Source of the DNA: Halopiger aswanensis
GTDB taxonomy: Archaea > Halobacteriota > Halobacteria > Halobacteriales > Natrialbaceae
Assembly: GCF_003610195.1 (NCBI RefSeq)
Contig: NZ_RAPO01000001.1
Span: forward strand, 124,001-188,000
DNA: 64,000 bases
Reading direction: 5' to 3'
The notes under the pieces were generated by a model, which was given only the letters and a program-made list of their open reading frames with translations, was not told the origin of the DNA and made no database searches. Position numbers and translations under genes: made by a program. Every line of letters begins with the position of its first letter. Positions within the stretch are counted from its first letter, which is position 1. This document shows, in pieces, positions 8,494 through 11,148 of the stretch.

Positions 8494-9132
8494 ATGGATA
8501 TCGATACCCCGTCCCTGTCCCCGTCCCCGTCGTCACCCCCATCCGTCCTGCTCGTCGAGCCCGATCCAGCCCTCGCAGCCCGCTATACGGGGTGGCTCGA
8601 GGACGAGTACGACGTCCAGGCGGTCGAAAGCGAGGCTGACGCGGTCGACGAGATCAGTGCGGCGGTCGACGTCGTCGTCTTCGATCGGCGGCTTTCACCG
8701 TCGGCGTCGGACTCGAGCCCTGGTATCGAAACGCTTCTACAACCGATCCACGACCGCGATCTCGGTTGTCGTGTTGCGATGATCGTTGCGTCTGCCCCCT
8801 CCACCGTGACCGTCCGGCGAGCGGTCGACGACTCCCTCGTTGCACCGATCTCGTCGACCGACCTCCGGCGCGTCGTCGACCGACTCGCACTGCAGGCGAT
8901 CTACGACGACCACCTCCGCACCTTCTACGAACTCGCCTCGAAGCGGGCGCTGCTCGATCGCGACCGACACGACGCCGAACTCGCCGCCAGCCGGCGCTAC
9001 GCCGCCCTCGAGGATCGGCTGGCGGTGGCGCGGACCCGCGCCGACGAGACGATGGCGGATCTGTTCGCAGCAGAGAGCGATCGCTACCGCCGCGACGTAA
9101 TGCGCGACGTACTTTGCGATGACGACGACTAA
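8494..9132 (+). CDS. HalX-domain response regulator-like protein with degenerate receiver
   Basis: 212 aa. After a Ser/Pro-rich leader, residues 17-130 form a receiver-like domain and residues ~135-200 form a coiled HalX domain (YDDHLRTFYELASKRALLD), a haloarchaeal output domain of unknown function. The likely phosphoacceptor Asp64 is present (VVVFDRR). However, the conserved Thr/Ser is Val98 (AMIVAS for the usual AMVTA) and the invariant Lys is Ala117 (LVAPIS for the usual LVKPVS). The acidic pair is weakened to Glu22/Asp24. Canonical phosphorylation-driven switching is therefore doubtful. It converges on the kinase-like gene at 9208. Confidence 0.8.
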   Translation: MDIDTPSLSPSPSSPPSVLLVEPDPALAARYTGWLEDEYDVQAVESEADAVDEISAAVDVVVFDRRLSPSASDSSPGIETLLQPIHDRDLGCRVAMIVASAPSTVTVRRAVDDSLVAPISSTDLRRVVDRLALQAIYDDHLRTFYELASKRALLDRDRHDAELAASRRYAALEDRLAVARTRADETMADLFAAESDRYRRDVMRDVLCDDDD

Positions 9133-9189
9133 CTGCCGCGACGTAATGCGCGACGTACTTTGCGATGACGACGACTAACTGCCGCGACG
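9089..9189 (+). repeat. 46-bp tandem duplication at the 3' end of the HalX gene
   Basis: Bases 9089-9134 are repeated exactly at 9135-9180, and a further 9 bases of the unit follow at 9181-9189. The stop codon (9130-9132) lies in the first copy, so the second copy is untranslated. The 9-bp GCCGCGACG at each boundary is the microhomology expected for replication slippage. Confidence 0.95.
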
Positions 9190-9207: not shown

Positions 9208-11148
9208 TTAGTCGACGGTCGACTCCGGCCGTGATTCCGGTTCCGGAACCTCGAGCGTCATCACGTCTCGAATCTCGATCCGCGTGCCGCCCTCGGAACC
9301 GCGTTCGATCGAGAGCGTCCAGTCGTGGGCTTCGGCGATCGCCTTGACGAGCGCCAGTCCGAGCCCTTCGATAGCCGTCTCGTCGTCGGTACTGGGATCC
9401 AGCAGCCGGTCGTGGGTTCCCGGATGTACCTCGGCCGCGTCGTCGCGCATGAAGAAGCCCCGCGACCGGTCGGCATTCTCGACGCCGATCACGTCGATCC
9501 AGACCGTCACATCGCTGCGGCTGCGGCTCCGAGACGCGACGTCGTCGAAGGCCGTCTCGAGGAGGTGGACGAACCGGTCGGCGTCGGCCCGTAGCGTCGC
9601 CGGCCGCTCGACGATAACGGCGTCGTCGTCCAGTCGCGAGCCATCGAGGGCCTCCTCGATGGCGCTCTCGAGGTGGATCCGACTGCGCGTCCGCACCGAG
9701 GAGGCGTTGCGGGCGAACTCCTTGACGTCGTCGACGAGCCGTTCGGCGCGGTCGAGGGTCGTCTCGACGGAGTCCTCCGCGAGGGGGAACTGCCAGTCGT
9801 CGGTTGCGTCGTCGGACTGCGTCCGACTGCTCGAGGATCGACGGTCCTCGCCGTCCTCGAGGGCTTCGGCGACCGTCTCGAGTTGGCGCTTGAGGTCGTT
9901 CGAGAGGATGTCGGCGACGCCTTCCAGGCGTTCGGTGCGGCGCTCGAGTTCAGCGGTTCGCTCGCGCAGCACGCGTTCGCGGTCGGCCCGATCGAGGGCC
10001 GCGCGCGTGTTCTCGACGAGCGTCGAGATCAGTTCGACGTCCGTTTCGTCGAACCGGTTGGGCTCGAGGGCGCCGGTCATGAGGACGCCGTGGGTACCGA
10101 TCGGAGCGATGATCTCCGAGCGGATCGGCGTCTCCGGATTGTAGAGTTCCTCCCGGGACGCGAGGTCGTCGAACCGCTCGACGTCGCCGGCCTCGAAGGC
10201 TTCCCAGACCAACCCCTCGCCGGGGTAGAACCGCGGGAGGCCCCCGAACTCGTCGTGCGCACCGGCGGTGCCGGCGACCGGCTCGAGGTAGCCGTGTTCC
10301 TCCTCGAGGAGCCAGACGCCGCTGATCGGCAGATCGAGCAGGTCGCTGCCCGAGTGGACGGCGATCGCACAGATCTCCTCGGGGTCGTCGGAGTCGAGGA
10401 GCCACCGCGTGACCTGGTGTAAGGAGGCGGCGACGCGCTCGTACTCGTGCTGGTCGGTGACGTCCCGGAGGACGCAGGCGACGGTCGCCGCGTCGTCCTC
10501 GATCGGGACGAAGCGGAACTCCCCCATCCGCTCCGTGCCGTCGGCGGCGGTAAAGGGCGCCTCGAGGCGGCGCGTTTCGGCGGTGCCGATGTCGATGTCG
10601 GTGATCGCGCGGCCGATCTCGACCGCGTCGTCGTCGTCGATCGCGGCCAGCTCCGGGAGGATCTCGACGTGTTCGCCGACGAGGTCCTCGCGATCGGCGC
10701 CGAGAATCCGTTTCATGGCGCCGTTGACCGAGACGATCTCCCGGTTGCGGTCCAGCGTCACGACGCCGTCGCTGATGGCCTCGACGACGGCGGCGTGCTG
10801 GGCCAGCGACGTCTCCTGGCGCTTGCGCTCGGTGACGTCGCGCATGTACACCGAGAGCCCGGTTTCGGAGGGGTAGGCCTTGGCCTCGAACCAGGTCTCG
10901 AGTCGGGTGTGGTAGACCTCGAAGGAGACGGGGACCTGCTCGTCCATCGCCCGGTGGAAGCCGTCGGGAAACTGCGTCTCGACGGTTTCGGGGAACTCGT
11001 CCCACATAACTCGGCCGATCAGCTCCGCGCGCGAACGCTTGAGGAGGGACTCGGCGCGCGCGTTGAGATAGGTAAAGCGGAAATCCGTATCGAGGGCGAA
11101 GAATGCGTCCGTAATCCGGTCGAGCGCCGGTATCGATCGCCGCGTCAC
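9208..11148 (-). CDS. PAS-PAS-GAF histidine kinase-like protein lacking the phosphoacceptor His
   Basis: 646 aa, GTG start at 11148, with no membrane segment. The domains are PAS (residues ~7-108), PAS (~118-232), GAF (~240-390), coiled coil, HisKA-like (~405-485) and HATPase-like (~515-628). The usual SHDLRNPL H-box reads SNDLKRQL, placing Asn417 where the phosphoaccepting His should be. The N-box Asn (NAVEHG in relatives) is not recognisable (FDDVASRS), and the G1 box is degraded. Only GLGLALVKAIAEAH resembles an intact G2 box. It is therefore probably a sensory pseudokinase, and it converges on the HalX gene. Confidence 0.8.
   Translation of the reverse strand: MTRRSIPALDRITDAFFALDTDFRFTYLNARAESLLKRSRAELIGRVMWDEFPETVETQFPDGFHRAMDEQVPVSFEVYHTRLETWFEAKAYPSETGLSVYMRDVTERKRQETSLAQHAAVVEAISDGVVTLDRNREIVSVNGAMKRILGADREDLVGEHVEILPELAAIDDDDAVEIGRAITDIDIGTAETRRLEAPFTAADGTERMGEFRFVPIEDDAATVACVLRDVTDQHEYERVAASLHQVTRWLLDSDDPEEICAIAVHSGSDLLDLPISGVWLLEEEHGYLEPVAGTAGAHDEFGGLPRFYPGEGLVWEAFEAGDVERFDDLASREELYNPETPIRSEIIAPIGTHGVLMTGALEPNRFDETDVELISTLVENTRAALDRADRERVLRERTAELERRTERLEGVADILSNDLKRQLETVAEALEDGEDRRSSSSRTQSDDATDDWQFPLAEDSVETTLDRAERLVDDVKEFARNASSVRTRSRIHLESAIEEALDGSRLDDDAVIVERPATLRADADRFVHLLETAFDDVASRSRSRSDVTVWIDVIGVENADRSRGFFMRDDAAEVHPGTHDRLLDPSTDDETAIEGLGLALVKAIAEAHDWTLSIERGSEGGTRIEIRDVMTLEVPEPESRPESTVD

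Follow-up and report, generated by a model that had tools for sequence, protein, structure and literature searches.

What a sensor kinase does once its phospho-acceptor histidine is gone is the question raised by a gene on the reverse strand (9208..11148) of the window, the 64,000-nucleotide stretch of Halopiger aswanensis DNA analysed here. The gene begins with GTG and encodes a pseudo-histidine kinase of 646 residues, arranged as PAS-PAS-GAF-coiled coil-DHp-like-CA-like.

Residues lost and kept

The domains, all on the reverse strand, start with PAS1 (Pfam PAS_4) at residues 9–110 (10819..11124), followed by PAS2 at residues 119–232 (10453..10794; Pfam PAS_9 match 126–232) and GAF at residues 238–388 (9985..10437; Pfam GAF_2 match 254–386). 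Next come a coiled coil with a DHp-like hairpin (residues 389–510, 9619..9984) and a CA-like (Bergerat) domain (residues 511–634, 9247..9618). No HisKA model of Pfam matches the 646-residue protein at E ≤ 1, the HATPase_c match (residues 522–627) reaches only 30.6 bits against a cut-off of 26.4, and the only NCBIfam model above cut-off is the general PAS S-box.

The H-box reads ILSNDLKRQL, with Asn417 (codon 9898..9900, reverse strand) at the acceptor position, Arg421 at H+4 and Gln422 (codon 9883..9885, reverse strand) at H+5. The N-box, ENLxRNAxEH in the aligned intact kinases, reads ETAFDDVA and places Asp536 at the position of the Mg-ATP-binding Asn. G1 reads DDAAE as against DDGPG, and the DxGxG pattern is absent; the G1 Asp and the two G2 glycines are retained. 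The gene therefore carries what a sequence-only reading had described, namely a PAS-PAS-GAF protein with SNDLKRQL as its H-box and with the N-box and G1 box lost.

The window genome contains 46 HATPase_c matches, among which that of the window gene has the second lowest score. Of the 42 examined, four are not of the HisKA type and, on our own reading of their sequences, would be two CheA proteins, a GyrB-like and a topoisomerase-VI-B-like protein. Among the other 38, 37 have the H-box His and the window gene is the sole exception. Elsewhere in the same genome, locus L194 (G000:C4:232493-233460) keeps the H-box His with a degenerate G1 (DRNPLI) and is a possible second, different kinase-dead protein. 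Locus L175 (G000:C4:250260-251252), a 216-residue open frame with a DHp and HATPase part and no sensor part, is perhaps a broken gene.

In most of the family's genomes, a search covering 61 genomes around that of the window recovered a single clear orthologue, whose score stood well apart from those of the paralogues; the copy of the genus-mate (G001) is 98% identical. A sample of 292 genomes drawn from the class yielded further orthologues, including some in other families of the order; in this sample at least one member of the family (G008) had no match at E ≤ 1e-60, beside 175 other genomes without a match. Among the 78 loci obtained by scanning named genome contigs, L040–L099 represent orthologues in Natrinema, Haloterrigena, Natronorubrum, Natrialba, Natronococcus, Halovivax, Halostagnicola, Haloarchaeobius, Halorubellus and other genera. 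A plasmid search returned only matches below 60% identity.

The orthologue set consists of 90 non-identical sequences of at least 300 bits (exact duplicates removed) and of L141, which scores below 300 bits but lacks the His and groups with L142 at 100/100, and was hence placed in the no-His clade, making 91. The intact set is formed by the 34 nearest paralogues. Ten paralogues whose match was confined to the PAS region or lay mostly there (L104, L109–L113, L115–L117 and L126) were dropped beforehand; nine of them have an intact SHDLQEPL H-box. Long lineage-specific insertions occur in the ATP-lid region of two pseudokinases (L026 and L016) and in the DHp hairpin loop of a third (L154), the remainder of each aligning closely. 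A kinase gene found next to purL in a genome devoid of the pseudokinase (L202) was considered as a possible ancestor and was not counted as an orthologue: it retains SHDLRNPL, the N-box and G1, and its match to the pseudokinase profile, at 130 bits, lies mostly in the C-terminal portion.

Position 417 is His in all 34 intact paralogues and in none of the 91 orthologues (34/35 and 0/90 if L141 is not moved), which rules out a recent inactivating mutation. Nine residue types occupy it in the orthologues (N 25, S 19, T 18, E 10, G 9, R 5, D 3, K 1, A 1, H 0), and it lies at the 93rd percentile of entropy in the protein (83 orthologues). The flanking L415, S416, D418 and L419 are nearly fixed. Thus the helix is constrained and the acceptor site is free to vary. 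The Asn to which the sequence-only reading had drawn attention is not itself conserved; it is present in only 25 of the 91 orthologues, so that a special role for Asn417 is rejected and the conserved feature is the absence of His. Nor is the acceptor shifted, since no His is conserved at ≥90% within residues 389–510.

The losses extend over the whole catalytic apparatus. The Pro at H+5 is present in 34/34 intact paralogues and 0/91 orthologues. An Asn or Thr at H+4 is needed for the phosphatase activity of HisKA proteins; it is found in 33/34 paralogues, as against Thr in 3/91 and Asn in at most 2/91 orthologues, and this loss makes a phosphatase devoid of kinase activity unlikely. The first N-box Asn (0/91), the second, Mg-binding one (5/91) and the two G1 glycines (7/91 and 3/91) are each present in 34/34 paralogues. 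What the orthologues keep is the acidic residue at H+1 (87/91), the G1 Asp (81/91) and the two G2 glycines (85/91 and 82/91). From these residues, a pseudokinase with neither autokinase nor phosphatase activity is predicted.

Origin, constraint and predicted fold

A maximum-likelihood tree was built from the GAF-DHp-CA columns, without column 417, of 75 sequences, namely a thinned set of 40 out of the 90 orthologues and 35 others. A branch with 100/100 support separates all no-His rows from the 34 intact ones. Since the His is general among histidine kinases, the most parsimonious scenario is that it was lost once, before the families diverged. The tree tool counts two changes, because L141 was labelled intact by its score. 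Judged from the alignment and the tree, the loss of the kinase, acceptor and phosphatase residues is common to the whole clade and has one origin.

The ratio dN/dS was estimated for 19 non-overlapping orthologue pairs of ≥85% identity. A simple counting method gave medians of 0.03 for PAS1, 0.13 for PAS2, 0.06 for GAF, 0.15 for the coiled coil and DHp and 0.26 for the CA-like domain, values for which codon usage was not corrected, so that the G+C-rich genomes may bias their absolute level and, to a lesser degree, their comparison. Every domain is under purifying selection, strongest in PAS1. Seven pairs of intact kinases gave medians of 0.12 (GAF), 0.17 (DHp) and 0.23 (CA). Relative to dS, the evolution of the CA-like domain, at 0.26, is thus no faster than that of its counterpart in active-looking kinases, and the GAF domain of the pseudokinase is, if anything, under tighter constraint than theirs. 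With no His in any orthologue, one well-supported branch and dN/dS far below 1 in all domains, the selection for a non-catalytic role that had been proposed from the sequence finds support.

The AlphaFold2 model of the whole protein (39 orthologues) has a mean pLDDT of 79.3, with a continuous helix at residues 368–438, a second helix at 457–482 and an alpha/beta sandwich; residues 436–460 and the lid (575–593) fall below 50. A Foldseek search with this model returned mostly GAF and PAS domains, with the NifL-NifA complex (9qq6) at rank 4 of the list, at low TM and matching in domain types only. Because GAF and PAS domains dominated this search, the C-terminal part was modelled separately (68 orthologues; mean pLDDT 82.8, pTM 0.65). 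It matches the DHp-CA structures of histidine kinases at Z 12–15, among them HprS (Z 14.6, rmsd 6.4, 221 aligned), DivL (4q20; Z 14.2, rmsd 3.4, 166 aligned) and RetS (Z 13.9, rmsd 3.2, 169 aligned). The sequence profile of the pseudokinase also matches histidine kinases in the PDB, DivL included. The models predict a DHp-CA fold retained after its chemistry was lost.

Output of the protein and its neighbourhood

Collectively, the loss of the acceptor, of the Mg site, of the phosphatase residue and of the Pro, combined with selection on all domains, makes an output by protein contact the most economical explanation. The family is probably an ancient, selectively maintained group of non-catalytic pseudo-histidine kinases acting through signal-dependent protein binding. 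A dimer would sense a small molecule or a redox state through PAS1, PAS2 and GAF, and the resulting change would travel down the continuous helix 368–438 into the DHp/CA-like module. This module, with no normal handling of Mg-ATP, no His phosphorylation and no phosphatase residue at H+4, may serve as a conformation-dependent binding platform that captures or releases a partner protein, following a logic like that of NifL or DivL. Conservation of the H+1 acid (87/91), the G1 Asp (81/91) and the G2 glycines (85 and 82/91) would however be unexpected had nucleotide binding been given up completely, and dN/dS does not tell whether the selected function is binding or some catalysis that has escaped recognition.

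The partner may itself be a kinase. As a dominant modulator, the protein would form heterodimers with a PAS/GAF histidine kinase paralogue and turn its activity on or off, as discussed for ChrS/HrrS; RetS/GacS is reportedly a further case. The DHp fold and the long helix kept in the model are consistent with this, at least 37 kinases of the genome have the H-box His and could serve as partners, and the gene persists in genomes where no HalX regulator adjoins it. On the other hand, no one kinase emerged as a conserved partner, and the modulator role is retained as a lesser possibility.

A second candidate partner is encoded next door. A receiver-HalX protein of 212 residues (8494..9132, forward strand) lies downstream of the pseudokinase gene and converges with it. 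At the 3' end of its gene a 46-base unit is tandemly duplicated (window positions 9089–9187), with 53 bases repeating exactly at a period of 46; the second copy occupies the interval that separates the two convergent stop codons. Beyond the HalX gene lies purL (NCBIfam TIGR01736), and on the other side of the pseudokinase a DJ-1/PfpI gene and a GNAT gene. The six neighbouring genes that were typed (MFS, PurL, HalX receiver, DJ-1/PfpI, GNAT and aminotransferase) include no NifA-like gene.

It is tempting to see in the pseudokinase a DivL-like reader of this HalX protein, whose DHp-like module would bind the receiver in its phosphorylated or unphosphorylated state. Of 90 loci, 82 are informative, the other eight having too little downstream DNA, and 71 of these 82 carry a convergent HalX gene close to the pseudokinase. 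Among 26 genomes lacking the pseudokinase, two have a strong and a third a weak HalX match by purL, and both strong cases belong to families that otherwise hold the pseudokinase; this rarity indicates that HalX and pseudokinase occur at this place in the same lineages. The receivers are canonical in most relatives, with the phospho-Asp in 72, the Thr in 71 and the Lys in 70 of 73 loci. In Haloterrigena sp. H1 the HalX open frame (L042:4899-5459, reverse strand) lacks the first part of the receiver, phospho-Asp included, perhaps through a frameshift.

Controls weaken the case for HalX as a dedicated partner. Of the 63 loci whose flanks are long on either side, 58 contain purL and 53 HalX, so the neighbourhood alone does not single out HalX and may simply be a stable chromosome segment. 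A genome-wide search covered 22 genomes chosen mainly for missing neighbours, 20 of which hold the pseudokinase. A HalX match of ≥230 bits was found in eight of the 20, two of them with the gene ∼17–22 kb away and two with it on another contig; the retention of such a distant HalX orthologue by two genera speaks for the HalX reader. Two others, from the window's genus, have a degenerate HalX neighbour, and in the remaining ten HalX was matched only at the level of paralogues (≤195 bits) or not at all. The pseudokinase remains under tight constraint in Halostagnicola, where it has no adjoining HalX gene. Together with the ten genomes, this makes HalX at most a facultative, not an obligate, partner, and the role of HalX reader is rather unlikely.

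In the window's genus the receiver is itself degenerate, which also counts against that role: the metal-binding Asp is replaced by Pro, the Thr by Val and the Lys by Ala, with the phospho-Asp kept. Between its two species the HalX proteins are 71% identical, compared with 98% for the pseudokinases, and dN/dS is 0.44 in the receiver versus 0.15 in the HalX domain. With kinase catalysis gone, a receiver devoid of its metal Asp, Thr and Lys, and constraint on both the HalX output and the pseudokinase domains, the two proteins could form a phosphate-free 'two-component' pair in this genus, signalling by contact alone; for such a pair the chances are very slim.

Continued use of nucleotide is improbable. 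The protein would still bind and perhaps hydrolyse it and would phosphorylate a target other than His, as suggested for RdmS of Methanosarcina. This would account for the G1 Asp and G2 glycines kept in most orthologues, and RdmS, which shows no autokinase activity, binds and hydrolyses ATP without an H-box (PMC11784639). Against it stand the near-complete loss of the Mg-binding N-box Asn (5/91) and of the G1 glycines (7/91 and 3/91), and an ATP-lid region that is unstructured in the model and strongly variable in length. Finally, gene decay and a newly arisen inactivating mutation can both be dismissed with near certainty: the HATPase_c score is second lowest of the 46 in the genome, but dN/dS of 0.03–0.26 across all domains rejects the former, and the same losses in 91 orthologues of many genera, none with His, reject the latter.

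Relation to known systems

Several of the closest known systems are bacterial. In DivL of Caulobacter the acceptor His is replaced by a Tyr that is conserved across most homologues; the H, N, G1, F and G2 boxes and Pro555 are kept, and the protein functions without kinase or phosphatase activity, a receiver acting as its signal (PMC4211667). The haloarchaeal protein resembles DivL in its PAS domains ahead of a DHp-CA fold, in the replaced acceptor and in the structural match to 4q20 (Z 14.2). It differs in an acceptor site that varies freely and in the loss of the N-box, the G1 glycines and the Pro, and hence does not belong to the DivL family proper. NifL of Azotobacter likewise has PAS domains followed by a DHp/GHKL module of the histidine kinase kind, without phosphotransferase activity, and binds NifA stoichiometrically (PMC12998174). 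NifL is paired with NifA, whereas the haloarchaeal protein has no NifA-like neighbour and has an added GAF domain. In Corynebacterium, a catalytically dead variant of ChrS modifies a paralogous system's output (PMC9491836); there, the lesion is a laboratory frameshift in the CA domain and not the mark of an ancient family.

The archaeal parallels differ in their lesions. RdmS and the MA_type 2 proteins are histidine-kinase-like and have no usable H-box, but in them the whole H-box region is absent (PMC11784639), whereas here the H-box is present minus its His and the ATP site is degraded. The nonenzymatic kinase-like proteins of a census of archaeal two-component systems, also sensors annotated as histidine kinases without kinase function, keep the His and lack the HATPase domain (PMC5847659). 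The haloarchaeal protein is the reverse case, with a HATPase-like domain kept and the His lost.

In the open-licence PMC literature, supplementary tables aside, no earlier description of this haloarchaeal family was found. It is apparently a new family of a known kind, undescribed in haloarchaea. Few pseudo-histidine kinases have a tested role, and the examples cited here that do (DivL, NifL and ChrS) come from bacteria. The present family is orthologous, old and nearly universal in an archaeal family, and for this orthologue group the name 'sensor histidine kinase' is probably wrong. The loss goes further than in DivL, leaving no ATP-site glycines, no phosphatase residue and no helix-bending proline. 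Thus, the family offers a natural test of what the DHp-CA fold is for once its chemistry is gone.
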